Part shown: positions 17,443 to 33,898 of the stretch, in pieces | Numbering within the stretch: position 1 is the first letter of the stretch | Layout of the letters: every line of letters begins with the position of its first letter | Made by a program: the position numbers and the translations under genes | DNA from: Rubellicoccus peritrichatus | GTDB lineage: Bacteria > Verrucomicrobiota > Verrucomicrobiia > Opitutales > Cerasicoccaceae | NCBI RefSeq assembly: GCF_033100135.1 | Contig: NZ_CP136920.1 | Coordinates: forward strand, 3,653,001-3,717,000 | DNA length: 64,000 nucleotides | Direction of reading: 5' to 3' | The notes under the pieces: generated by a model | Seen by the model: the letters and a program-made list of their open reading frames with translations, nothing else | Databases searched by the model: none | What the model was told of the DNA's origin: nothing

Positions 17443-17482
17443 GTTCGATGCCTGTCAACACGTCGTTTCAATTGATTGTCGG

Positions 17483-17546
17483 GTAGGGCACAGTCTCCAG
17501 ACAAGCCGCCGGTTCATGGCCGGCTTGCCTGTCGACTGCTTCCTGC
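17483..17546. repeat. Degenerate copy of the CAGTCTCCAGACAAG palindromic repeat
   Basis: The left arm GTAGGGCACAGTCTCCAGAC continues to AAGCCG, while the right arm (17521-17546) begins CGGCTTGCCTGTC and is clearly diverged. This is the most decayed of five copies in the window. It sits between the adaptor gene and the SDR gene. Confidence 0.7.
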
Positions 17547-19680: not shown

Positions 19681-19827
19681 TCAAACCTCGGTACTTTCAT
19701 CTTGTTAGATTGTAGAGCGGTGTAATGGAAGGTAGGGCGCAGTCTCCAGACAAGCCGAACACTGCCTCTGAGCATCGCTGCTTTTCTCTACAACAACGTT
19801 CGGCTTGTCTGGAGACTGCGCCCTACC
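19681..19827. repeat. Long palindromic repeat with conserved flank, copy 2
   Basis: Two perfect 30-base arms (19731-19760 and 19798-19827) surround a 37-base loop. The 50 bases to the left and the loop itself also resemble those of the copy at 21481-21630, and in reverse orientation the copy at 28928-29060. The unit is therefore larger than the palindrome, MITE-like, and lies between the rhomboid and glycosidase genes. Confidence 0.85.
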
Positions 19828-21480: not shown

Positions 21481-21630
21481 ACCTCGATATTTTTTATCTT
21501 GTTAAGATTATAGAGCGATGTAATGGAAGGTAGGGCGCAGTCTCCAGACAAGCCGAATATTGCCTCTGAGCATCGCTGTTTTTTCTACAACAACATTCGG
21601 CTTGTCTGGAGACTGCGCCCTACCTTCCAT
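21481..21630. repeat. Long palindromic repeat with conserved flank, copy 3
   Basis: The best-preserved copy: two perfect 36-base arms (21523-21558 and 21595-21630) around a 36-base loop. The left flank, from ACCTCGATAT to GATGTA, and the loop match copy 2 with few changes. It lies between the glycosidase gene and a small hypothetical gene. Confidence 0.9.
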
Positions 21631-22925: not shown

Positions 22926-22992
22926 GGTAGGGCGCAGTCTCCAGACAAGCCGCCACCATAATGCTCGGCTTGTCTGGAGACTGCGCCCTACC
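22926..22992. repeat. Short form of the long palindromic repeat, copy 4
   Basis: Perfect 27-base arms (22926-22952 and 22966-22992) with only a 13-base loop and no conserved flank. It lies exactly between the convergent LysR gene and the last PEP-CTERM gene of the array. Its RNA would fold into a very stable hairpin and could terminate transcription from both sides. Confidence 0.85.
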
Positions 22993-23003: not shown

Positions 23004-23693
23004 TCAAGCAGCCTGCTTCGCCTTGCGCCAGCGGCGTAGTCCGGCGGCCCCCAATGCTAAGGCTCCAAGCCCCGTGGTCACAGTGGCAGGCTCGGGGATA
23101 GCACCAACCTGAATGGGGCTGCCATCATCTTCATACGCCCAGCGATGGATTGTGACACCTGCTTGAGCGCCATCATAGAAAGTCGCTTCCGCCCAACCAT
23201 ATTTAATGCCTTCTGAGGTGAGACCTGCCGAGCCTTCAAAGCGAAAACCAAAGTATCCCGATACTCCGGAAGTAAATCCTACTATGCTGTCAAAGTTTGA
23301 ACCGTTTACTATATTTGCAGAAGGCTTAAACAGCCTAATGGCTCCAACCGTAAAGCCTTCTGGTAGGTTTGAAACCAGGTTGCTGCTATTAGCGGCTAAG
23401 TTGAGGTCGCCATCTTGAGCGTGAATTAGAAGGTAACCAGTACTTGCAATAATACCAGCATCTGTGGTTGGGCGCAGGCTGGATGCGGTCCCCGAACCTG
23501 TGACAATGATGTCACCGCCTCTACCTTCATCGACGTCCCAATCAGTTGGACCAAAAGTGACTCCGAGGCCGACGCTGAATTCGTTGGTGTTGTCGTAATA
23601 CTGGATGATGCCTTGGGCGTTCGTTGCTGCGAGCAGTGAACTCACCGCGGCTGCTGCGGTTGCTTTACTGTGTTTCTTTTCTTTGAGGAGCAT
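23004..23693 (-). CDS. PEP-CTERM protein, array copy 13 (most downstream)
   Basis: A 229-residue secreted protein. The signal peptide (MLLKEKKHSKATAAAAVSSL, then LAATNAQG) is followed by IIQYYDNTNEFSVGLGVTFG and a degenerate version of the family's acidic motif (TDWDVDEG). The C-terminal module reads GYFGFRFEGS ... YGWAEATFYDG ... VTIHRWAYEDDGSPIQVG. The sorting tail is IPEPATVTTGLGALALGAAG plus LRRWRKAKQAA: PEP motif, short Gly/Ala-rich helix, basic end. The ATG at 23693 was chosen over a longer frame because it starts the signal peptide. The 5' leader lacks a Shine-Dalgarno sequence. It is convergent with the LysR gene. Confidence 0.85.
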   Translation of the reverse strand: MLLKEKKHSKATAAAAVSSLLAATNAQGIIQYYDNTNEFSVGLGVTFGPTDWDVDEGRGGDIIVTGSGTASSLRPTTDAGIIASTGYLLIHAQDGDLNLAANSSNLVSNLPEGFTVGAIRLFKPSANIVNGSNFDSIVGFTSGVSGYFGFRFEGSAGLTSEGIKYGWAEATFYDGAQAGVTIHRWAYEDDGSPIQVGAIPEPATVTTGLGALALGAAGLRRWRKAKQAA

Positions 23694-23839
23694 ATGACTT
23701 GATTCGTGTTTTTTGCTGTATTGGGGAAATGTGAGCGCAGACAAATAGCACAGCAGACCTGAATCTAGTATGAATTCTCCCCTAACTTTTTAGAGGTGGA
23801 GATGTTTAAAGCAAAAACTAGGGTCTAGTCAGCGAAGTT

Positions 23840-24469
23840 CTAGTTAACTCGCCTCTTGCGCCAGCGACGCAGTCCGGCGGCTCCCAGAGCAAGGGCACCG
23901 AGTCCCGTGGCGACGGCGGCGGGCTCGGGCACATTCATGGTCTGGCCGACTTGAATGGAGCTTCCATCGTCTTCATAAGCCCAGCGATGGATTGTGATAC
24001 CCGGATCGGGACCTTCAAAAAAGGTGACTTCAGCCCAGCCAGCCACAGGTAGACTTCCATTGTTGAAAGAGAAACCCATGAACCCGCTTTGTCCCGAATT
24101 AAATCCGCTCAAGTTAGCAAAATTCGAGCCTCTTATCAAATCCCCAAGCCTAAAGTTTGTCCCTGTTTGTACCGTATAGTTAGTGTTCAGATTTGTTACG
24201 TCACCACCATTTGATAAAAATCCAGCTGAAACAGCACTTGCTCTGCTCGCAAATATATTGCTGTTGCCAGGCGCTGTAACAATAAAAAACAATTCCGGCT
24301 GTGAGGTGCCATCAATATTCCACAAAGCTTGAGTGTTCAGTCCCAGGCCGACACTAAACTGATTCGTCGTATCGAAATACTGAACGACTGCCTGAGCGCT
24401 GCTGGCGGCGAGTAGTGAGCTCACGGTGAGCGTGCCTGTTTTGTGGTATTTTTTAGATTTGTTCGTCAT
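23840..24469 (-). CDS. PEP-CTERM protein, array copy 12
   Basis: A 209-residue secreted protein, the shortest of the family. It starts MTNKSKKYHKTGTLTVSSLL, then AASSAQAVVQYFDTTNQFSVGL, with the acidic motif as LWNIDGTS. The C-terminal module is 'GFMGFSF ... AGWAEVTFFEG ... ITIHRWAYEDDGSSIQVG', the HRWAYEDDGS subtype. The tail is VPEPAAVATGLGALALGAAG followed by LRRWRKRRVN, a more basic end than the usual KAKQAA. The middle (about residues 60-125) is not like its neighbours. It lies 53 bases after copy 11 and 146 before copy 13. Confidence 0.85.
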   Translation of the reverse strand: MTNKSKKYHKTGTLTVSSLLAASSAQAVVQYFDTTNQFSVGLGLNTQALWNIDGTSQPELFFIVTAPGNSNIFASRASAVSAGFLSNGGDVTNLNTNYTVQTGTNFRLGDLIRGSNFANLSGFNSGQSGFMGFSFNNGSLPVAGWAEVTFFEGPDPGITIHRWAYEDDGSSIQVGQTMNVPEPAAVATGLGALALGAAGLRRWRKRRVN

Positions 24470-24480
24470 GGGTATGAGTT

Positions 24481-24520
24481 ATTCTCTGTGGTTTTGTGTC
24501 TCCGTGAGGGGTTTGAAACA
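24481..24520. repeat. TCTCTGTG-type short repeat in array spacer
   Basis: The spacer between copies 11 and 12 contains ATTCTCTGTGGTTTTGTGTC followed by TCCGTGAGG, a variant of the dispersed repeat seen at 21651 and 29096. Confidence 0.5.
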
Positions 24521-24522
24521 TA

Positions 24523-25200
24523 TCAAGCAGCCTGCTTCGCCTTGCGCCAGCGACGCAGTCCAGCGGCGCCAAGAGCGAGGGCTCCCAGGCCAGTGGCGAC
24601 GGCGGCGGGCTCGGGGACATTTGTGGTTTGGCCGACTCGGATGGATTGGCCCGGTGTATCCTCATAGGCCCATTCGTGGATCACTAGGCCGGCGGGATTA
24701 GAATCTATTGCTTTATAAATCGTAGTACGTGCCCAGCCTGCTAATAATGTAGGATTGCCGTCGCCATCTCGTTCTGTTACGAACATGAATCCAAAATAAC
24801 TCGGTTGCCCCGTGGTGAAATCAACAAAATCGTAAGCACCAGCGACACCATTAAGTGATCGGAGATTTGGGCCGCCTACCGGATTAAAATCAATGTTATT
24901 TGAAGAAGATACAGTGTAGTTAAAAGTCAGACTGGCTAAATAGGTTAGGTCGCCAGTTCTTACTGGAAACATGCTGTAAGCACCCGGGTCTAAAAGAAAG
25001 TAAGTGCTGAAAGCAATCCAATCAAGTTGCGTTAAGCCACTGCCGTCGATGTCCCAGGAGCCAAAGTTGTTTTGTCCCAAGCCTATGGTAAATTCGTGAG
25101 ACGAATCAAAGTACTGGATGATGCCCTGTGCGTTACTGGCGGCGAGTAATGAGGTCACTGCAGCGGTTGCTTTGCGATGCTTCTTATCCTTTAGGAACAT
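24523..25200 (-). CDS. PEP-CTERM protein, array copy 11
   Basis: A 225-residue secreted protein of the HEWAYEDT subtype. The N-terminus is MFLKDKKHRKATAAVTSLLA followed by ASNAQGIIQYFDSSHEFTIG; the acidic motif is SWDIDGSG. The C-terminal module reads 'YFGFMFVTERDGDGNPTLLAGWARTTIYK ... VIHEWAYEDT' in separate pieces, with a longer insertion before GWARTT than other copies. The tail is VPEPAAVATGLGALALGAAG and LRRWRKAKQAA. The 5' leader on the minus strand shares an ACACAAACCAGAC word with copies 6 and 7. It follows copy 10 by 52 bases. Confidence 0.85.
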   Translation of the reverse strand: MFLKDKKHRKATAAVTSLLAASNAQGIIQYFDSSHEFTIGLGQNNFGSWDIDGSGLTQLDWIAFSTYFLLDPGAYSMFPVRTGDLTYLASLTFNYTVSSSNNIDFNPVGGPNLRSLNGVAGAYDFVDFTTGQPSYFGFMFVTERDGDGNPTLLAGWARTTIYKAIDSNPAGLVIHEWAYEDTPGQSIRVGQTTNVPEPAAVATGLGALALGAAGLRRWRKAKQAA

Positions 25201-25252
25201 ATAGTCTGGTTTGTGTTATGTTTTTGCGGTTGGGAAATGATAAGCCTACTAC

Positions 25253-25900
25253 TTATGCAGCCTGTTTTGCTTTGCGCCAGCGGCGGAGTCCGGCGGCTCC
25301 GAGGGCGAGGGCGCCGAGCCCGGTGGCGATGGTGGCAGGCTCTGGGATGGCGCCTGTCTGAATATTCGCGCCCGTATTATCATAGGCCCACTGGACGATT
25401 TCAAAAGTCCCTGTAGCCCCGCCTTCGGTCAAAATGACTTCTGCCCAGCCGTAGAGCACGAGAGAGCCAGACGGATTGAACTGAAAGCCGATGTATCCGC
25501 TTTCTCCACTGGTGAAGCCAGCGACGTTGCTGAAATTTCCGCGGTAAAAAACACTAAAAATAATACCATCATTGAAGATGCCCGCATTAACGTAAGTATC
25601 GGCCCCAAGACTGAGCAGATCATCTCTTGCCCCAGTTCCAGTTGCTCTTGCCTCAAAGCCGTTGTTTGGTCGTATGAGGTCCATATATCCACCAAAATCT
25701 GGACCAGATAGGATGGTGACTTCTGCTGTCCCATCGTCATCAATATCCCATTCAAAATCACCGTTACGATTGCCGGCAATGCCACCATTCAACCCAAGGT
25801 TCGCGTTGGTGACGATAATAGCGTTAAGGCTGGAGCTTCCCAAAAGAGCGCCGATCGTAATGGTAGTTAGCTTATGTTTTTTGTTCTTATCTAAATGCAT
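25253..25900 (-). CDS. PEP-CTERM protein, array copy 10
   Basis: A 215-residue secreted protein, one of three adjacent members (8, 9, 10) with a distinct N-terminus: MHLDKNKKHKLTTITIGALL, GSSSLNAIIVTNANLGLNGG, then a Gly/Asn stretch and FEWDIDDDGTAEV. The C-terminal module is GYIGFQFNPSG ... YGWAEVILTEGGATGTFEI followed by VQWAYDNTGANIQTG, and the tail is IPEPATIATGLGALALGAAG plus LRRWRKAKQAA. Relative to copies 8 and 9 its coding sequence is more diverged, suggesting it split off earlier. Confidence 0.85.
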   Translation of the reverse strand: MHLDKNKKHKLTTITIGALLGSSSLNAIIVTNANLGLNGGIAGNRNGDFEWDIDDDGTAEVTILSGPDFGGYMDLIRPNNGFEARATGTGARDDLLSLGADTYVNAGIFNDGIIFSVFYRGNFSNVAGFTSGESGYIGFQFNPSGSLVLYGWAEVILTEGGATGTFEIVQWAYDNTGANIQTGAIPEPATIATGLGALALGAAGLRRWRKAKQAA

Positions 25901-25939
25901 TTGGTAATGGAAGTATGTGCTGTCTCTCTTAGGAGGTGG

Positions 25940-26581
25940 TTATGCCGCGCGTTTTGCTTTGCGCCATCGGCGCAGTCCGGCGGCACCGAGGGCGAGCACT
26001 CCGAGTCCGGTCGCAACGGCTGCGGGTTCTGGGACAGCACCTGTCTGGATGTTCGCGCCGGTGTCTTCATAGGCCCACTGGACGATCTCAAAAGTTCCCG
26101 TGTCGCCACCTTCGGTCAGGATGACTTCTGCCCAGCCGTAGAGGGTCGTGCCTGCGGGTCGGAATTGAAAGCCGATGTATCCACTCTCGCCACTCGTGAA
26201 GCCAGTGGCATTTCTGATATTTCCATCGAGTAGAACCGTTAGAGCTTCTGCATTAAAAACTGCGCTACCGGCATTGACGTAGTTACTCAGTCCCAGGTTC
26301 AGGATATCTTCCCTGTTACCAGGAGCAACAGCCCTGATTCCAAAGCCATTTCCACCATTAAATAGATCTACAAAACGGTTTAAGAAACTGTAGACTCTGA
26401 TTTCTCTTCCCCCCTCTCCGTCAATATCCCAGTCGAAGGTACCGTTACCATTACCAGCAATGCCACCACTCAGCCCAAGATCGACATTGGTGACGATGAT
26501 ACCGTTCAGGCTAGTACTTCCTAAAAGCGCACCGATCGTCGCGGCAGTTAAATTACGTCGTTTGTTTTTACCTAAATGCAT
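25940..26581 (-). CDS. PEP-CTERM protein, array copy 9
   Basis: A 213-residue secreted protein, the closest relative of copy 8. Both share LTAATIGALLGSTSLNGIIV and TNVDLGLSGGIAGNGNG, followed by TFDWDIDG, almost without change at the DNA level. Their residues about 48-100 differ strongly. The C-terminal module is GYIGFQFRPAGTTLYGWAEV with VQWAYEDTGANIQTG, and the tail VPEPAAVATGLGVLALGAAG and LRRWRKAKRAA. The start is the ATG at 26581; a longer frame reads back into the tail of copy 8 in another phase. Confidence 0.85.
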   Translation of the reverse strand: MHLGKNKRRNLTAATIGALLGSTSLNGIIVTNVDLGLSGGIAGNGNGTFDWDIDGEGGREIRVYSFLNRFVDLFNGGNGFGIRAVAPGNREDILNLGLSNYVNAGSAVFNAEALTVLLDGNIRNATGFTSGESGYIGFQFRPAGTTLYGWAEVILTEGGDTGTFEIVQWAYEDTGANIQTGAVPEPAAVATGLGVLALGAAGLRRWRKAKRAA

Positions 26582-26610
26582 TATGTGATTTTGTATGTGA
26601 AGTCGTTTAT

Positions 26611-26640
26611 TCTCTCTGTCTCCGCGTCTCCGCGAGAGCT
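26611..26640. repeat. TCTCTCTGTCTCCGCG-type short repeat in array spacer
   Basis: The spacer between copies 8 and 9 holds TCTCTCTGTCTCCGCGTCTC followed by CGCGAGAG. It is a relative of the short dispersed repeat in other spacers. A further weak version is at about 27328-27350. Confidence 0.4.
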
Positions 26641-26651
26641 TTTGAAGATTA

Positions 26652-27293
26652 TCAAGCAGCCTGCTTCGTCTTGCGCCAGCGGCGGAGTCCGGCAGCGCCA
26701 AGGGCTAAGGCACCTAGGCCTGTAGCAACGGTGGCGGGCTCGGGGATGGCGCCTGTCTGAATATTCGCGCCGGTGTCTTCATAGGCCCACTGGACGATTT
26801 CAAAAGTCCCTGTGTCACCGCCTTCGGTTAGGACGACTTCCGCCCAGCCGTAAAGGGTCGTGCCTGCGGGTCGGAATTGAAAGCCGATGTAACCATTCTC
26901 GCCACTCGTGAAGCCAGTGGCAAATCTGATATTTCCATCGCGTAGAATCGTATAGATATATGAACCAAAAGTTGCGTCACCAGTATTGACGTAGTTACTC
27001 AGTCCCAGATTCAGAAGATTTCCCGCGCCAGCAGGACCAAGCGCCCTGACTCCAAAGCTATTTCCACGACTAAATAGATCTACGATTCTGTCTTGGAAAA
27101 TATCGACTATAGCTTCTTGTCCTCCTTGTCCATCAATATCCCAGTCGAAGGTGCCGTTACCATTGCCGGCAATGCCACCACTTAGCCCAAGATCGACGTT
27201 GGTAACGATGATACCGTTCAGGCTAGTACTTCCTAAAAGCGCACCGATCGTCGCGGCAGTTAAATTACGTCGCTTGTTTTTGTTAGGATACAT
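26652..27293 (-). CDS. PEP-CTERM protein, array copy 8
   Basis: A 213-residue secreted protein with N-terminus MYPNKNKRRNLTAATIGALL, sister of copy 9. The acidic motif is TFDWDIDGQGG. The region after it (about residues 50-100) carries most of the differences from copy 9, while FATGFTSGENGYIGFQFRPA and the following GWAEVVLTEGGDTGTFEI are nearly identical. The tail is IPEPATVATGLGALALGAAG and LRRWRKTKQAA. This pattern of similar ends and a different middle suggests either recent duplication with fast change of the middle or exchange between copies. Confidence 0.85.
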   Translation of the reverse strand: MYPNKNKRRNLTAATIGALLGSTSLNGIIVTNVDLGLSGGIAGNGNGTFDWDIDGQGGQEAIVDIFQDRIVDLFSRGNSFGVRALGPAGAGNLLNLGLSNYVNTGDATFGSYIYTILRDGNIRFATGFTSGENGYIGFQFRPAGTTLYGWAEVVLTEGGDTGTFEIVQWAYEDTGANIQTGAIPEPATVATGLGALALGAAGLRRWRKTKQAA

Positions 27294-27361
27294 TATGACT
27301 TTTTATATCGAAAATGTTTATTTGCTGTGCCCCGATCTCCGAGAGGGGATTAAAAGCTTAT

Positions 27362-28000
27362 TCAAGCTACTTGCTTCGCCTTGCGCCAGCGACGCAGCCC
27401 GGCAGCGCCAAGGGCCAGGGCACCCAGGCCGGTGGCGACGGCGGCGGGTTCCGGGATGGCGCCGGTATCGCCGACTTGAATAGCCTGGTCAAAAGTATCC
27501 TCATAGGCCCACTCATGAATGGTAATAGCAAAGTCTGGCGTTCTGGTTACGGTAGCCCTTGCCCATCCAAAACGAACGGTGTTGGGAAGTTCAGTTCTTT
27601 CCAAAAAGGTAAAACCAAAGTAAGCCGAAACACCTGAGGTGAATTCTGCAAAATCGTCAAAAGCCCCGTTAGAATAGTTAAAATTGTTTTCAAAGCTCTT
27701 TGATGCCGAAACGGTATAATTTGTTGCCAGATTGGCCAGGCTACTAGGGTTTCCGCTCGTCACAATACCTTCAAAACCACCGCCTGCACCATGTATGAGA
27801 AAATAACCTGGAAAAGTCTGAACACTTGCATCAATAATTCCATTTCCATCAATATCCCATGCGCCAGAATCATCGTTTAGAGTGAAGGCGTTTGACGAAT
27901 CAAAGTACTGAATAATGCCCTGTGCATTACTGGCTGCGAGGAGAGAACTGACTGCTGCTGTTACGGTTGCTTGAGTGTGCTTCTTTTCTTTGGAGAACAT
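27362..28000 (-). CDS. PEP-CTERM protein, array copy 7
   Basis: A 212-residue secreted protein. The N-terminus MFSKEKKHTQATVTAAVSSL continues LAASNAQGIIQYFDSSNAFT and is almost identical to that of copy 6. The rest belongs to the other subtype: ITIHEWAYEDTFDQAIQVG instead of HRWAYEDDGS, with RFGWARATVTRTPD before it. The acidic motif is AWDIDGNG. The tail is IPEPAAVATGLGALALGAAG and LRRWRKAKQVA. The start at 28000 puts the signal peptide first; the longer open frame upstream overlaps copy 6 out of phase. It is a likely mosaic gene. Confidence 0.85.
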   Translation of the reverse strand: MFSKEKKHTQATVTAAVSSLLAASNAQGIIQYFDSSNAFTLNDDSGAWDIDGNGIIDASVQTFPGYFLIHGAGGGFEGIVTSGNPSSLANLATNYTVSASKSFENNFNYSNGAFDDFAEFTSGVSAYFGFTFLERTELPNTVRFGWARATVTRTPDFAITIHEWAYEDTFDQAIQVGDTGAIPEPAAVATGLGALALGAAGLRRWRKAKQVA

Positions 28001-28055
28001 ATATGGTCTGATTTGTGATTTATTTCTGCGTTTGGGGAAAAATGGAGTCTGCTTA

Positions 28056-28703
28056 TCAAGCAGCTTGTTTTGCCTTGCGCCAGCGACGGAGTCCGGCGGC
28101 GCCGAGGGCGAGAGCACCCAGGCCGGTAGCGACAGTAGCGGGCTCGGGGATAACACCAGTGTCGCCGACTTGGATGCTGCTGCCATCATCTTCATAAGCC
28201 CAGCGGTGGACGGTGATACCTGGATCATTGCCGTCAAAAAAAGTGACCTCAGCCCAGCCGTACTGTGGCCCGCTGCCTAAGTTAAAATAGAAGCCCATGA
28301 ACCCGGTTTCTCCCGAAGTAAATCCGCTCGCTCCAACGAATGTCGAGTTATTCACTATAATCTTATTATTCGCGAAAGACTCTGTATTGGACGGAATAGT
28401 ATAACCCGATGCTAGGTTTGCTATGTCGCCACCATTCGTAAACATTCCGGCTGATTGACCTGGATTGGTTGCCAACGAGTAAGCGACAAAATAACCGGTA
28501 AAAATATTATGCAACCCAATCTCGCCTATGAAGGGATCACCATCAATGTTCCAAGTTGCACTGCTGTTGCCTCCCTGGCCAGCGCTGAAGGCATTTGACG
28601 AGTCAAAGTACTGAATAATGCCTTGTGCGTTACTTGCTGCGAAGAGTGAACTGACTGCGGCTGTTACGGTTGCTTGAGTGTGCTTCTTTTCTTTGAGGAA
28701 CAT
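28056..28703 (-). CDS. PEP-CTERM protein, array copy 6
   Basis: A 215-residue secreted protein. The N-terminus MFLKEKKHTQATVTAAVSSL is shared with copy 7, but the C-terminal module (YGWAEVTFFDGNDPGITVHR, then WAYEDDGSSIQVG) resembles that of copy 12. The acidic motif is TWNIDGDP. The tail is IPEPATVATGLGALALGAAG and LRRWRKAKQAA. Its upstream region (28704-28800) resembles the upstream region of copy 13, with a shared run around CTGAA-N-CT-N-N-GATGAAT-type sequence, so this may be a promoter region of its own after the 428-base gap to copy 5. Confidence 0.85.
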   Translation of the reverse strand: MFLKEKKHTQATVTAAVSSLFAASNAQGIIQYFDSSNAFSAGQGGNSSATWNIDGDPFIGEIGLHNIFTGYFVAYSLATNPGQSAGMFTNGGDIANLASGYTIPSNTESFANNKIIVNNSTFVGASGFTSGETGFMGFYFNLGSGPQYGWAEVTFFDGNDPGITVHRWAYEDDGSSIQVGDTGVIPEPATVATGLGALALGAAGLRRWRKAKQAA

Positions 28704-28927
28704 AGGGTCTGATTTGTGTTATATTTCTGCGCTGGGAAAATTTGGGCGCGGAATATATCAGACGTCACCTGAACCTCCGATGAATCGCCCCATTTTTATA
28801 GGGGAAAATCATCGATTTACATTTTTTACACAAAGTGGGTTGATTATGAGAGGGCTGCTGTGGATTAAAAATATTAGCTTATTGCTTCATATCCTCTTGA
28901 TGACCAGTTTTTTATGGCAGCTTTTCA

Positions 28928-29060
28928 GGTAGGGCGCAGTCTCCAGACAAGCCGAACACTGCCCCTGGCATCGCTGCTTTTCTCTACAACAACGTTCGGC
29001 TTGTCAGGAGACTGCGCTCTACCTTCCATTACACCGCTCTAAAAGTTAACAAGATGAAAA
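28928..29060. repeat. Long palindromic repeat with conserved flank, copy 5 (inverted)
   Basis: Arms at 28928-28957 and 28994-29023, matching with two mismatches. The conserved flank lies to the right (TTCCATTACACCGCTCTAAA and on to CAAGATGAAA) and is the reverse complement of the left flank of copies 2 and 3, so this copy is inserted in the opposite orientation. It lies in the largest spacer of the PEP-CTERM array. Confidence 0.85.
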
Positions 29061-29095
29061 AACAGAGTCTTCATCCTGAGACTCAAGGAATTGAA

Positions 29096-29130
29096 CGCTC
29101 TGTGCTCTCTGTGCCTCTGTGGCTAAATTA
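29096..29130. repeat. TCTGTGCTCTCTGTG-type short dispersed repeat
   Basis: CGCTCTGTGCTCTCTGTGCC is followed by TCTGTGGCTAAATTA, ending one base before the stop of array copy 5. It closely matches the copy at 21651-21680, including the GCTAAAT end. In both places it follows a long palindromic repeat. Confidence 0.6.
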
Positions 29131-29131
29131 T

Positions 29132-29773
29132 TTAGAAACTACTTTTGTGCAGCTGCTTTGCCTTGCGCCAGCGGCGCAGTCCGGCTGCTCCGAGCGCAAG
29201 GGCTCCCAGTCCGGTGGCAACGGCGGCGGGTTCCGGGATCACGCCGGTGTCGCCGACTCGTATGCTGCCGCCATCGTCTTCATAGGCCCATTGATGCATG
29301 GTGACACCTGGGCCTGCCGGGTTGGTTTTATCAAACATAGTGATCTGCGCCCATCCATATAGGGTTGTGCCGCCATTCTCGAAACGAAAACCAAAGTAGC
29401 CCGCAACTCCCGTCGTGAATCCTATCTGATTGCCTAAATATGAGCTACTAATAATCGAAGTATGGGGTCGATAGGCGAAATTACCTGATACACCGACAAT
29501 GTAATTGGTCGTTTGATTCGTTATCTTTACTGCGATGGCGGCAAAATAGGGATAATTGCTAAGCCCTACGTAATGGCCTCCATAATCTACGATCAATTCA
29601 GCTTCGCTGTCACCTTCACCGTCGATGTTCCAGTCGACATCCACATTAATTCTAAAGCCAACGTGATACTCGTTTGACTGATCGAAGTATTGAATGGCGC
29701 CCTGTACGCTGCTGGCCGCAACGAGTGAAGTGACGGTCGTCGTCGCTGCTTTGCATTTGCGCTTATGGCTCAT
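29132..29773 (-). CDS. PEP-CTERM protein, array copy 5
   Basis: A 213-residue secreted protein with N-terminus MSHKRKCKAATTTVTSLVAA and then SSVQGAIQYFDQSNEYHVGF. The acidic motif is DWNIDGEGDSEAE. With copy 4 it forms a pair marked by HQWAYEDDGGSIRVG and by GYFGFRFENGGTTLYGWAQI. The tail is IPEPAAVATGLGALALGAAG and LRRWRKAKQLHKSSF; the end is extended by five residues compared with other copies, probably because of sequence change at the stop next to the short repeat. It lies 135 bases after the unrelated PEP-CTERM gene. Confidence 0.85.
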   Translation of the reverse strand: MSHKRKCKAATTTVTSLVAASSVQGAIQYFDQSNEYHVGFRINVDVDWNIDGEGDSEAELIVDYGGHYVGLSNYPYFAAIAVKITNQTTNYIVGVSGNFAYRPHTSIISSSYLGNQIGFTTGVAGYFGFRFENGGTTLYGWAQITMFDKTNPAGPGVTMHQWAYEDDGGSIRVGDTGVIPEPAAVATGLGALALGAAGLRRWRKAKQLHKSSF

Positions 29774-29789
29774 GTATTATGAATTGTTT

Positions 29790-29809
29790 TTACCACGGAG
29801 ACACGGAGC
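29790..29809. repeat. TACCACGGAGACACGGAG short repeat
   Basis: TTACCACGGAGACACGGAGC lies just upstream of array copy 5. It is the inverse-orientation form of the TCTCTGTG/TCTCCGTG repeats in other spacers. Confidence 0.55.
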
Positions 29810-29908
29810 GAAGTAACGATCTCTGCGCCACACCTGCGCCAGAATTGGAGATCAAATGGGATCGAGTAAAACCTGATCCGCGATTACTTGGGTCACGCAG
29901 TGGGAAAA

Positions 29909-30676
29909 CTACCTGCTGCCTGAGGGTTTTTGTCTCCGTAGAATGGCAAGGGCCAAAACACCGATGCCAACCATTGAGACATAGTAGGCTGGTTCAGGAA
30001 CCACGGTGCCCTCTATGTCAATATTACCCAGTCGGGTCGAGCTGTGGAAAGTAGTGCCTGAACCAACATTGTTAGAGCCCCAAACATAGAGTCGGAAGTT
30101 GACGACATCCCCGCTAACGATCCCAGATGGCATCCCCTCGTTGACAACAAAAGAATCGATATCACCTGAATCAGGATCATTGTTCACTGAGCCGATCAAG
30201 TCAGCACTGCTGAAGCTCGTGTCATTGATACGATATGCGAGTTGACTATCCTGCCAACCGATACGTCCGCTGGAAGAATTGAAATTAACTCGTGTGTCGT
30301 AGCTGAATGATTCGAGTGTAAGCGTCTGCCCCCCACTCAGTCCATCGACAGTGAAGCTAAATTCAAAATATTGTTGATCTGCGATCGCATCCGCTGCGGT
30401 CGTCGTGTCATCGGCTTCGCCACCTGCTGCGCTGTAGTAGTTAATCTCACCGCCGGAAATCTGACTTGAACCACTTATGTTATCATTGTTGTCCGCACCA
30501 CCTAACCCGCTTCCCTGAGCACTATCTAGAATGCTACTCGTATAAATACTGCCAACGCCCTCCAAATCACCATCATCAATGGTAGAACCCCATGTTACAA
30601 GCATCACTGCTTGGGATTGCAAAAAAAAGAGTAGTGAGCTACTCAGAAGAATTGTTTTAATACTGAACTTCATCAT
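29909..30676 (-). CDS. PEP-CTERM protein of a different family inside the array
   Basis: A 255-residue secreted protein with a signal peptide (MMKFSIKTILLSSSLLFFLQ, cleavage near SQA) and a classical PEP-CTERM tail, VPEPAYYVSMVGIGVLALAI followed by LRRQKPSGSR. The middle is rich in Ser, Gly, Asp and Asn (GSGLGGADNNDNISGSSQIS) and has FEFSFTVDGLSGGQTLTLES, a beta-sandwich-like pattern seen in many PEP-CTERM proteins. It has none of the features of the 13 array copies (no WDIDG, no GWAEV, no GLRRWRK), so it is an unrelated gene that sits in, or interrupted, the array. Confidence 0.8.
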   Translation of the reverse strand: MMKFSIKTILLSSSLLFFLQSQAVMLVTWGSTIDDGDLEGVGSIYTSSILDSAQGSGLGGADNNDNISGSSQISGGEINYYSAAGGEADDTTTAADAIADQQYFEFSFTVDGLSGGQTLTLESFSYDTRVNFNSSSGRIGWQDSQLAYRINDTSFSSADLIGSVNNDPDSGDIDSFVVNEGMPSGIVSGDVVNFRLYVWGSNNVGSGTTFHSSTRLGNIDIEGTVVPEPAYYVSMVGIGVLALAILRRQKPSGSR

Positions 30677-30909
30677 TTTTTTAAAATTTATATTATAATA
30701 CTTGAAGCAAAAATTGATTATCTTTTCCGAATATGAGCCATCCCAAGTCTATTTCAGGCTTGTGGACGTTTGTACGCATAAAATCAAAAAAACACCCCGT
30801 GTCTGTCACTGCACCCGACGGATGTGGTGGCTGTTTTGTTGTAGTGTTTTTATTTATCGATTTCATAATTAAACTGAATGTTGATCTTTGTTTTGTTATC
30901 GGAAGAGAT

Positions 30910-31545
30910 TTAGGCCGCTTGCTTTTGCTTCCTCCAGCGGCGCAGTCCGGCTGCTCCTAAAGCGAGGGCGCCCAGACCGGTGGCCACGGCGGCGGGTTCG
31001 GGAATGGCGCCGGTGTTGCCGACTCGTATCCCACTGCCATCATCCTGATAGGCCCATTGATGCACGGTTACGCCGACACCGCTCGGACTCGGGTTGGTTT
31101 TATCAAAAAATGTGGCCTCAGCCCAGCCGTATACAGTCATGCCGCCATCCTCGAAACGAAAGCCAAAATAGCCCGCTTCACCCGAAGTAAATCCATTTAT
31201 ATTATTGAAATCTGAGGAAACAATTATTCCAGAATTGTAGAAAGGAGCAAAGTTTGCCGATGCATCTACAATATAGTTTGTAGTCTGATTCTGTATTACA
31301 GTATTGATTGCGAAAAAGGTGGGATAACCGTTAAGCCCTAAGTAACCGCCTCCGTTGGCAACCTCCCAGCTAGCTTCGCTGCCACCTTCGCCATCGATAT
31401 TCCAATCAATCGATGCACTGTTGCCAAAGCCAACGTTGTATTCGTTTGAATCGTCATAGTATTGAATGATGCCAGGTGCGCTGTTTGCAGCGACAAGTGA
31501 GGTGAAGGCAGTTGTTGCTGCTTTGTGGTAGTGTTTTTTGTTCAT
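30910..31545 (-). CDS. PEP-CTERM protein, array copy 4
   Basis: A 211-residue secreted protein with N-terminus MNKKHYHKAATTAFTSLVAA and NSAPGIIQYYDDSNEYNVGF. The acidic motif is DWNIDGEGGSEAS. The C-terminal module is GYFGFRFEDGGMTVYGWAEA then VTVHQWAYQDDGSGIRVG; the tail IPEPAAVATGLGALALGAAG and LRRWRKQKQAA shares the KQKQ end with copy 3. It is the sister of copy 5. It is followed downstream by the 233-base gap before the unrelated PEP-CTERM gene, in which nothing else was recognised. Confidence 0.85.
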   Translation of the reverse strand: MNKKHYHKAATTAFTSLVAANSAPGIIQYYDDSNEYNVGFGNSASIDWNIDGEGGSEASWEVANGGGYLGLNGYPTFFAINTVIQNQTTNYIVDASANFAPFYNSGIIVSSDFNNINGFTSGEAGYFGFRFEDGGMTVYGWAEATFFDKTNPSPSGVGVTVHQWAYQDDGSGIRVGNTGAIPEPAAVATGLGALALGAAGLRRWRKQKQAA

Positions 31546-31557
31546 ATATTATAATTT

Positions 31558-31614
31558 TTACCACGGAGGTATGGATAAGGTAGTGGACCTTAAGCTCCAT
31601 TCCCTCCGTGGTAA
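31558..31614. repeat. Paired TTACCACGGAGG / CCTCCGTGGTAA inverted repeat
   Basis: A perfect 12-base inverted repeat (31558-31569 and 31603-31614) with a 33-base loop in the spacer between array copies 3 and 4. Each arm is the core of the short CACGGAG repeat, so here two copies face each other. Confidence 0.6.
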
Positions 31615-31639
31615 TACTATACTTCTACTAATGAAATTT

Positions 31640-32293
31640 TTAAGTAGCTTGCTTTTGCTTCCGCCAGCGGCGCAGTCCGGCCGCACCCATGGCGAGGGCT
31701 CCGAGTCCGGTGGCAACGGCGGTGGGTTCAGGGATGGCGCCAACCTGAATGGAGCTACCATCATCCTCAAAAGCCCAGCGATGGACGGTTACGCCGATGC
31801 CGCTCGGGTTCGTATCATCGTAGAAAGTAACTTCGGCCCAACCTAACCTGGTATTTCCTCCCATGTCTTCTGGAGGTAGGCGAAAGCCCATATAGCCAGC
31901 AACTCCGCTAGTAAATCCATCTAGTTTATTGAATTCCCCGGAAGCGATGAGGGCCGAAACGACACTGCTTTGAAAGGGTAGATATGCCGTGACGTATAGG
32001 GGTGGTGGTGTATTGACCAATGCGCTAAATGTGGTAACGAAAGCAATAGGACCATAGCTAAATACTGTTCCTGCATTTAGCCCCATGTAGGTGCCACCAA
32101 AAAAATTCCATTGAGCCTCAGCAATGCCATCCGGATTCCCATCAATATCCCAAGGGGTAGCAGCATTGCTTCCGAATCCGGCATTGAACTCGTGGGAGTT
32201 ATCGAAATATTGAATACTGCCCTGTGCGCTGCTGGCAGCTATGAGGGAAGTGACGGTCACGGTGGCTGCTTTGTGAAAGTCTTTTTTGTTCAT
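31640..32293 (-). CDS. PEP-CTERM protein, array copy 3
   Basis: A 217-residue secreted protein, sister of copy 2. The N-terminus is MNKKDFHKAATVTVTSLIAA then SSAQGSIQYFDNSHEFNAGF; the acidic motif is PWDIDGNPDG. The C-terminal module is YMGFRLPPEDMGGNTRLGWA then VTVHRWAFEDDGSSIQVG. The tail IPEPTAVATGLGALAMGAAG and LRRWRKQKQAT combines the ALAM variant of copy 2 with the KQKQ end of copy 4. This is another hint that segments have been exchanged between neighbours. Confidence 0.85.
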   Translation of the reverse strand: MNKKDFHKAATVTVTSLIAASSAQGSIQYFDNSHEFNAGFGSNAATPWDIDGNPDGIAEAQWNFFGGTYMGLNAGTVFSYGPIAFVTTFSALVNTPPPLYVTAYLPFQSSVVSALIASGEFNKLDGFTSGVAGYMGFRLPPEDMGGNTRLGWAEVTFYDDTNPSGIGVTVHRWAFEDDGSSIQVGAIPEPTAVATGLGALAMGAAGLRRWRKQKQAT

Positions 32294-32333
32294 ATATTAC
32301 GAATGATTATTTTATCGGATTTGCTCAAAATGC

Positions 32334-32993
32334 TTACTTGGCTTTTTTTGCCTTGCGCCAGCGGCGCAGTCCAGCCGCACCCATGGCGAGTGCGCCGAGG
32401 CCGGTGGCAATAGTCGCAGGTTCTGGGATGGCGCCAACTTGAATGTTACTGCCATCATCCTGAAACGCCCAGCGATGGACGGTTACGCCGATGCCGCTTG
32501 GATTAGAGTCGTTGTAAAAGGTGACTTCCGCCCAGCCTAACTTAATGTTTCCTTCCATGTCTTCTTTGGGAAGGCGAAAGCCCATGTAGCCACTAACGCC
32601 GCTTGTGAAGTCAGCAAGATTGTTGAATTCCCCGGAAACGATAAGGGCCGAAGCTCCGCTGGCTTCAAAGGGCTGATAGGCGGTTATGGTTTCGTTTACA
32701 GGTAGGTTGAGTAATGAATCAAATGTCACAAGCGCAGCGAAAGGACCGCCGTAGCCATAGGCAGATCCTCCAATTAGACCCATGTAGCTGCCAACAACAT
32801 TCCATCGAGCATCGGCGAGCCCATCCGGATTCCCATCGATATCCCAAGGGGTAATGCCATTGCTTCCGAGACCAGCACTGAATTCATTGGATGTGTCGAA
32901 GTACTGGATGATACCCTGAGCACTGCTGGCAGCGACGAGTGATGTAAGTGTAGCCGCGGTTGCCTTGCTGCTTTTACTTCTTATAGTGATCAT
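32334..32993 (-). CDS. PEP-CTERM protein, array copy 2
   Basis: A 219-residue secreted protein with N-terminus MITIRSKSSKATAATLTSLV then AASSAQGIIQYFDTSNEFSA. The acidic motif is PWDIDGNPDGLAD, as in copy 3. The C-terminal module is YMGFRLPKEDMEGNIKLGWA with VTVHRWAFQDDGSNIQVG, and the tail IPEPATIATGLGALAMGAAG plus LRRWRKAKKAK. It shares AFEASGA/SALIVSGEFNNL-like words with copy 3. It lies 41 bases downstream of copy 1. Confidence 0.85.
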   Translation of the reverse strand: MITIRSKSSKATAATLTSLVAASSAQGIIQYFDTSNEFSAGLGSNGITPWDIDGNPDGLADARWNVVGSYMGLIGGSAYGYGGPFAALVTFDSLLNLPVNETITAYQPFEASGASALIVSGEFNNLADFTSGVSGYMGFRLPKEDMEGNIKLGWAEVTFYNDSNPSGIGVTVHRWAFQDDGSNIQVGAIPEPATIATGLGALAMGAAGLRRWRKAKKAK

Positions 32994-33034
32994 GAAAGTT
33001 GTATTAATTATAAAATAACTTTGATGCTTCGCAC

Positions 33035-33691
33035 TTAAGAAGTCCGCTTTGCCTTGCGCCAGCGACGTAGTCCGGCGGCTCCTAATGCCAGGGCTCCGAG
33101 TCCGGTGGCAACGGCGGCAGGCTCGGGAATGGCGCCGACTTGGATGGCCTGATCGGGAGTATCTTCATAAGCCCACTCATGAATGGTCACACCGGATCCT
33201 CCAGGGTTGGTCCCGTTATAAAAAGTAGCTCTCGCCCAACCGTATTGCTTTGGTCCAGGGTTGAAAGGATCGGTAATGAAGTGAAAACCGAAATACCCGG
33301 ATACCGCGGAATTGAAATTTGAAAGATCATCAAAAGCATTGCCCTGAATCAATGTGAATTGATCATCAAACTGCTTGGATGCAGATACCGTATAATTGAC
33401 TGGGACATTACTGAGTCGGCTCGTCATGATGGGATTAGCCAAGCCATTCAAATAACCACCGGATCCGTAAAGATTAATGATGGATCCGCCTGAGCCACCG
33501 ACGTTCCAAATCCCGTCGACAGTACCATTGTCATCAACATTCCAGAGAGTCGTGCCAGTGCTTCCGAAGCCGACGCTGAATTCATTGGATGTGTCGAAGT
33601 ACTGGATGATACCCTGTGCGCTGCTTGCGGCAATGAGTGATGTGACAGTGGCTGCGGCTGCTTTACTTTGCTTAGTTTTATTAAGAAACAT
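33035..33691 (-). CDS. PEP-CTERM protein, array copy 1 (most upstream)
   Basis: A 218-residue secreted protein of the HEWAYEDT subtype and first in the direction of transcription. The N-terminus is MFLNKTKQSKAAAATVTSLI then AASSAQGIIQYFDTSNEFSV; the acidic motif is LWNVDDNGTVDG. The C-terminal module is YFGFHFITDPFNPGPKQYGW, ARATFYNGTNPGGSGVTIHE and WAYEDTPDQAIQVG. The tail is IPEPAAVATGLGALALGAAG and LRRWRKAKRTS. Its first 55 residues resemble copy 2 while its C-terminal module resembles copies 7 and 11. The promoter of the array, if there is a single one, should lie in 33692-33780, but I see no convincing boxes there. Confidence 0.85.
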   Translation of the reverse strand: MFLNKTKQSKAAAATVTSLIAASSAQGIIQYFDTSNEFSVGFGSTGTTLWNVDDNGTVDGIWNVGGSGGSIINLYGSGGYLNGLANPIMTSRLSNVPVNYTVSASKQFDDQFTLIQGNAFDDLSNFNSAVSGYFGFHFITDPFNPGPKQYGWARATFYNGTNPGGSGVTIHEWAYEDTPDQAIQVGAIPEPAAVATGLGALALGAAGLRRWRKAKRTS

Positions 33692-33898
33692 ACGGTAGTT
33701 CGTTTGCGATTAAGGAATAAACGCAGCGATACTAGCATGCCCAAAATTAACGATAGATTAACGGGCCCTCATTATTTTAAGGATTGTTCAGGTCTTTCTC
33801 AAAGGCGTCGCGCGTGGGGCGAACGGAGATTCATTTTAATGATTTTGGTGCGCAGTCCTCATCAAGAATGTCGGGGCATCATGGCATGTTCGATGTTA

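Follow-up and report, generated by a model that had tools for sequence, protein, structure and literature searches.

Introduction

A PEP-CTERM protein is defined by three elements in series, namely P-E-P, a hydrophobic helix and a cluster of basic residues (PMC1569441). As described by Haft et al. 2006 (PMC1569441), most PEP-CTERM genes form single-gene operons with long upstream gaps, and their tails resemble one another more closely in one species than across species. Exosortase substrates have been tied experimentally to cell-polysaccharide binding (PMC12188702, PMC9850573).

The locus analyzed here has in common with the PEP-CTERM/exosortase (EpsH) system (PMC1569441) a putative N-terminal export signal, the P-E-P, the single hydrophobic helix and the C-terminal basic cluster, as well as many paralogues per genome, an exosortase in the same genome and protein bodies without known domains. 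It differs from that system in that 13 relatives are packed into one row with gaps of mostly 39-146 nt; because most PEP-CTERM genes stand alone (PMC1569441), such a dense array is unusual.

Results

Layout of the array

The window, i.e. the whole stretch of 64,000 nucleotides, lies on one 5.8 Mb contig (positions 3,653,001-3,717,000) and contains 13 minus-strand open reading frames of 209-229 codons spanning window positions 23004-33693, in agreement with the preliminary description of 13 same-strand paralogues of about 210-230 codons. All 13 copies are intact, without a single internal stop. In the order of their coordinates, the genes are g01 (23004-23693; start at 23693 if the downstream ATG is taken), g02 (23840-24469), g03 (24523-25200), g04 (25253-25900), g05 (25940-26581), g06 (26652-27293), g07 (27362-28000), g08 (28056-28703), g09 (29132-29773), g10 (30910-31545), g11 (31640-32293), g12 (32334-32993) and g13 (33035-33691), the latter being the first gene in the reading direction.

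The intergenic gaps are 39-146 nt, with the exceptions of g08/g09 (428 nt) and g09/g10 (1136 nt). The longer of these contains a minus-strand PEP-CTERM gene (29909-30676) that is non-homologous to the array family and whose tail is short and of the conventional type; the preliminary description omitted it. Adjoining this gene is a possible truncated start of an array gene (30817-30865, minus strand), a weak candidate for a 5'-end remnant that matches the start of g10 over 22 nt at 91% identity. Because of the gene spacing, the array may be expressed as a few co-transcribed blocks, which would provide both dosage and a mixture of variants; the layout suggests such blocks and not a single active copy that draws on silent cassettes. 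The best sigma-70-like match upstream of g13 (33774-33802, minus strand; 10/12), a possible array promoter, is a consensus match only. The absence of a Shine-Dalgarno sequence upstream of the array genes was considered as a special trait and rejected, given that such sites are rare window-wide (3 of 30 long open reading frames).

REPIN-like hairpins built on 26-nt inverted repeats (GGTAGGGCGCAGTCTCCAGACAAGCC) were found at four places, namely 19731-19827, 21529-21624, 22926-22992 (just downstream of g01) and 28928-29023 (between g08 and g09), and a single arm of the repeat lies at 17482-17507. The two hairpins that were tested fold strongly (z −9 to −13), and g01-g08 are bracketed by those at 22926-22992 and 28928-29023. 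A short element, CTCCGTGGTAAAAA, is common to 29787-29801 and 31555-31569, just upstream of g09 and g10.

Protein architecture

Mean pairwise amino acid identity among the 13 copies is 47% in the N-terminus, 26% in the middle (W-D-x-D to FTSG), 52% in the GWA module (C-module) and 86% in the tail, which bears out the preliminary description of conserved ends and a variable middle. In the array alignment, W51, D54, GWA and P-E-P are invariant, and GLGALALGAAGLRRWRK is nearly so. The shared modules named in that description, i.e. W-D-x-D, GWA and a PEP-CTERM-type tail, are all present, except that the T of the GWA module is missing in three copies (GWAEVIL/GWAEVVL, 25253-27293) and one copy (29132) has Q. 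Ten of the 13 copies carry the tail 15-mer GALALGAAGLRRWRK unchanged; of the others, one has GVLAL and two have GALAM. As a putative signal peptide, most copies have a basic start, an Ala/Thr/Leu stretch and an AxA-like end. This stretch is moderately hydrophobic (1.3-1.8 vs 1.6-2.7 in six conventional PEP-CTERM proteins of the genome), i.e. weaker than in most conventional PEP-CTERM proteins encoded there.

Structures predicted for g13 and g06, one from each of the two lineages defined below, are confident (mean pLDDT 83 and 81, respectively) and consist of about 10 strands over residues 29-176, followed by a C-terminal helix. Foldseek returned no PDB match to the beta domain at E up to 0.001, the best second-look fold comparison (Z 5.5, HmuY analogue 6eu8) fell within the noise range stated for the tool, and the sequence search for solved structures gave no match better than E 0.58; thus, fold comparison yielded no trustworthy known-fold relative.

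The W-D-x-D motif sits between two predicted beta strands, and the relaxed pattern [DN]-x-D-x-[DNSEQ]-G-x-x-[DE] occurs in 23 of 49 family members compared to 0.11 expected after shuffling. In many members, the motif fits the Dx[DN]xDG calcium-binding loop described by Rigden et al. 2011 (PMC3123361), so that the proteins may bind calcium. The array family resembles these loops in the placement of the motif between two predicted strands in many members; unlike them, it keeps the full pattern in only 7 of the 13 array copies, the pattern being broken in six.

Two lineages and their distribution

In the family tree, g01-g03 and g07-g13 (ten copies, lineage A) group together (support 100/97), whereas g04-g06 (25253-27293, lineage B) are joined first by two genes that lie scattered in the same genome (98/89) and then by genes from G002, the closest of the relatives searched, and from an uncultured Puniceicoccales bacterium; the kin of g04 are the single genes L022 and L023 elsewhere in the genome. 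Since g04-g06 are closer to scattered genes than to the other array copies, the array joins two lineages, i.e. as read from the tree, it is a merger and not a single expansion.

A profile search of the genome with the array proteins yielded 39 stretches, of which 13 fall within 10.7 kb of 5.8 Mb, far beyond chance. About 20 further family members are scattered in the same genome, either alone or in small clusters, and outside the array the longest tandem run has three genes (1271435-1273695). The local expansion that had been proposed is supported, but the family is not confined to it. Among 384 sampled genomes of the class, 67 contain the family, as judged by a search limited to seven scored candidates per genome, which may undercount clusters; no genome showed more than three members in tandem, a maximum that also applied to eight promising genomes re-searched in full. 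G002 has 18 scattered matches, about five of them within 9 kb at one spot, and no array; the genomes compared are all from other genera. In a synteny comparison with G002, the neighbors of the array, uppP and a LysR gene, were on different contigs, which gives no date for the insertion point.

Selection on the segments

When dN/dS was compared between segments, the middle evolved faster than the flanks, in line with the variable middle of the preliminary description. In g05/g06, the youngest pair, omega was 0.94 (0.53-1.86) in the middle compared to 0.09 in the flanks (codon permutation p = 0.0002), and in g11/g12, the values were 0.48 and 0.11, respectively. Across the pairs tested, the middle omega was 0.94, 0.48, 0.34 and 0.22, so that no pair provided evidence of positive selection on the middle, i.e. 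omega > 1. The middle is also the least conserved segment between array and scattered members. In these comparisons, the middle is fast-evolving, near-neutral at most and under weak constraint, and the sequence analysis supports strong purifying selection on the tail and the GWA module. The 'diversified binding faces' that had been proposed for these proteins are not supported, with the middle at most near-neutral even in g05/g06.

The absence of any middle omega above 1, the low conservation of the middle in comparisons with scattered members and the possible truncated remnant at 30817-30865 are all compatible with birth and death without diversification, whereby ordinary tandem expansion would leave redundant copies and the middle would simply be the region of the small beta domain where constraint is lowest. 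However, all 13 copies are intact despite saturated silent divergence and, therefore, each has been kept by selection. We consider this explanation unlikely, albeit one to be reckoned with.

Exchange between copies

Most copy pairs are saturated at silent sites and, accordingly, the copies are old. Several of them are mosaic: the N-terminus of g07 resembles g08 and its C-terminal half resembles g13; g08 resembles g07 in the N-terminus and g02 in the C-terminal half; and g12 resembles g13 in the N-terminus and g11 in the remainder. In g07/g08, pS is 0.27 in the N-terminus vs 0.87 in the C-module. In g05/g06, pS reaches 0.75 in the tails vs about 0.3 elsewhere, a pattern that the replacement of one tail would produce.

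Segment trees, which are imprecise because many silent sites are saturated, were mutually rejected in 11 of 12 AU comparisons (p < 0.005), the exception being the middle on the C tree (p = 0.06). Because short segments give imprecise trees, a random-split control was run: the N vs C incongruence sum was 114.6 log units, whereas 40 random codon splits averaged about 43 and did not exceed 94.5. These results support recombination between array copies.

At fourfold sites of the tail, the difference is 0.51 within lineage A, 0.52 within lineage B and 0.52 between A and B, compared to 0.68-0.69 to the sister genes of lineage B elsewhere in the genome. In the C-module, by contrast, lineage B is 81% identical to its scattered sisters and 45% identical to lineage A. 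Thus, at silent sites, the tails of the two lineages are as alike across lineages as within them, whereas the bodies are not, which points to local gene conversion. Third positions are C-rich in array tails (0.46-0.54 vs 0.30 in scattered copies), and part of the likeness is due to this. That codon choice or an embedded nucleotide signal, and not gene conversion, accounts for the silent-site likeness is nevertheless doubtful: composition alone predicts an A-B difference of about 0.67 (a hand calculation from third-position frequencies) compared to 0.51 seen, and the g05/g06 tails, far more divergent than the rest of that pair, fit the replacement of one tail. Local gene conversion or unequal crossing-over appears to be the simplest reading of the segment exchange.

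The tail class and exosortases

P-E-P is present in all 13 copies, a hydrophobic helix spans residues 192-217 in the model and RRWRK is invariant, i.e. the tails show the PEP-CTERM order. Among the nine array proteins scanned, the best scores were 18.2 bits for PF07589 (cut-off 20.7) and 14.3 bits for TIGR02595 (cut-off 16), and none of the 13 is in the PF07589 match list of the genome; given these scores below the cut-offs, we term this a PEP-CTERM-type variant tail. The tail is near-invariant, as previously noted; it is not, however, specific to the array but marks a genome-wide class, with 38 matches in this genome and 16 in G002, also present in related genera. Most of this abundant class (about 35 in this genome) escapes the standard cut-offs of Pfam and NCBIfam, so that counts of exosortase substrates in such genomes would be too low.

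The observation that the window encodes no exosortase was correct: five exosortase-family genes were found, all elsewhere in the genome, with PF09721 above its cut-off and all five above the TIGR04178 signature cut-off. A stretch of about 12 kb, L108:5054-17361, has a pair of small exosortase-family genes (279 and 181 aa), and an EpsI-like gene follows the first of them.

The five exosortase types were sorted across relatives by presence or absence vs the tail class. The best fit was the 551-aa type (L072), found in this genome, G002 and G017 and, in G007, near a member of the array family. L072 is a candidate partner of the tail class with two mismatches: it also occurs in G003, which nearly lacks the class, and it was not detected in G019.

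Discussion

We consider it fairly probable that the array comprises 13 exported, exosortase-processed, beta-rich proteins and that it grew by tandem duplication and local exchange. Export would proceed through Sec by means of the short N-terminal signal; the tail of P-E-P, hydrophobic helix and RRWRK would then be recognized by one of the genome's exosortases and removed, with the mature beta domain released to the cell surface or the exopolysaccharide matrix, the most likely location of the mature proteins by analogy with described substrates. According to the sequence analysis, the row grew by tandem duplication from two founder lineages and, once these were adjacent, the 3' ends were homogenized and the 5' parts exchanged to some extent, with gene conversion or unequal crossing-over as the simplest mechanism. 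As judged from the sequences, this appears to be a real but fairly conventional surface-protein family grown by local duplication and gene conversion.

A more specific proposal is a kin- or matrix-specificity locus, in which calcium-dependent surface proteins would bind different polysaccharides or partner cells through diversified middles, and a tail sub-class with a dedicated exosortase would be kept uniform by conversion between neighbors. We hold this proposal to be improbable. The 'reservoir for variation' of the preliminary description, if read as an antigenic or phase-variation system in which copies donate segments to one expressed copy and thereby alter the surface, would fit the mosaic copies and neighbor exchange but is disfavored and very improbable, since all copies are individually equipped with a start, an export signal and a tail and there is no single expression site, the detected exchanges are old (silent divergence of about 0.3 or more) and no recombinase was recognized beside the array.

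Returning to exported, exosortase-processed proteins, the closest functional comparisons are PepA of Aquincola (PMC9850573) and the exosortase-dependent proteins of Nostoc punctiforme (PMC12188702). Both have in common with the array family an exosortase-type tail, and both have been tied experimentally to exopolysaccharide, floc or biofilm retention; the likeness considered here is that of the tail. Compared to the EpsH system (PMC1569441), the array tail is longer and belongs to an extended class (GLGALALGAAGLRRWRK and some five further residues) whose scores stay under the cut-offs of PF07589 and TIGR02595. Large sets of PEP-CTERM paralogues have been known since 2006, and their growth has rarely been visible before; here, a single row displays tandem duplication, merger of lineages and exchange of sorting tails between neighbors. 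Tail exchange like that in this array would give rise to the greater likeness of PEP-CTERM tails within than between species (PMC1569441).
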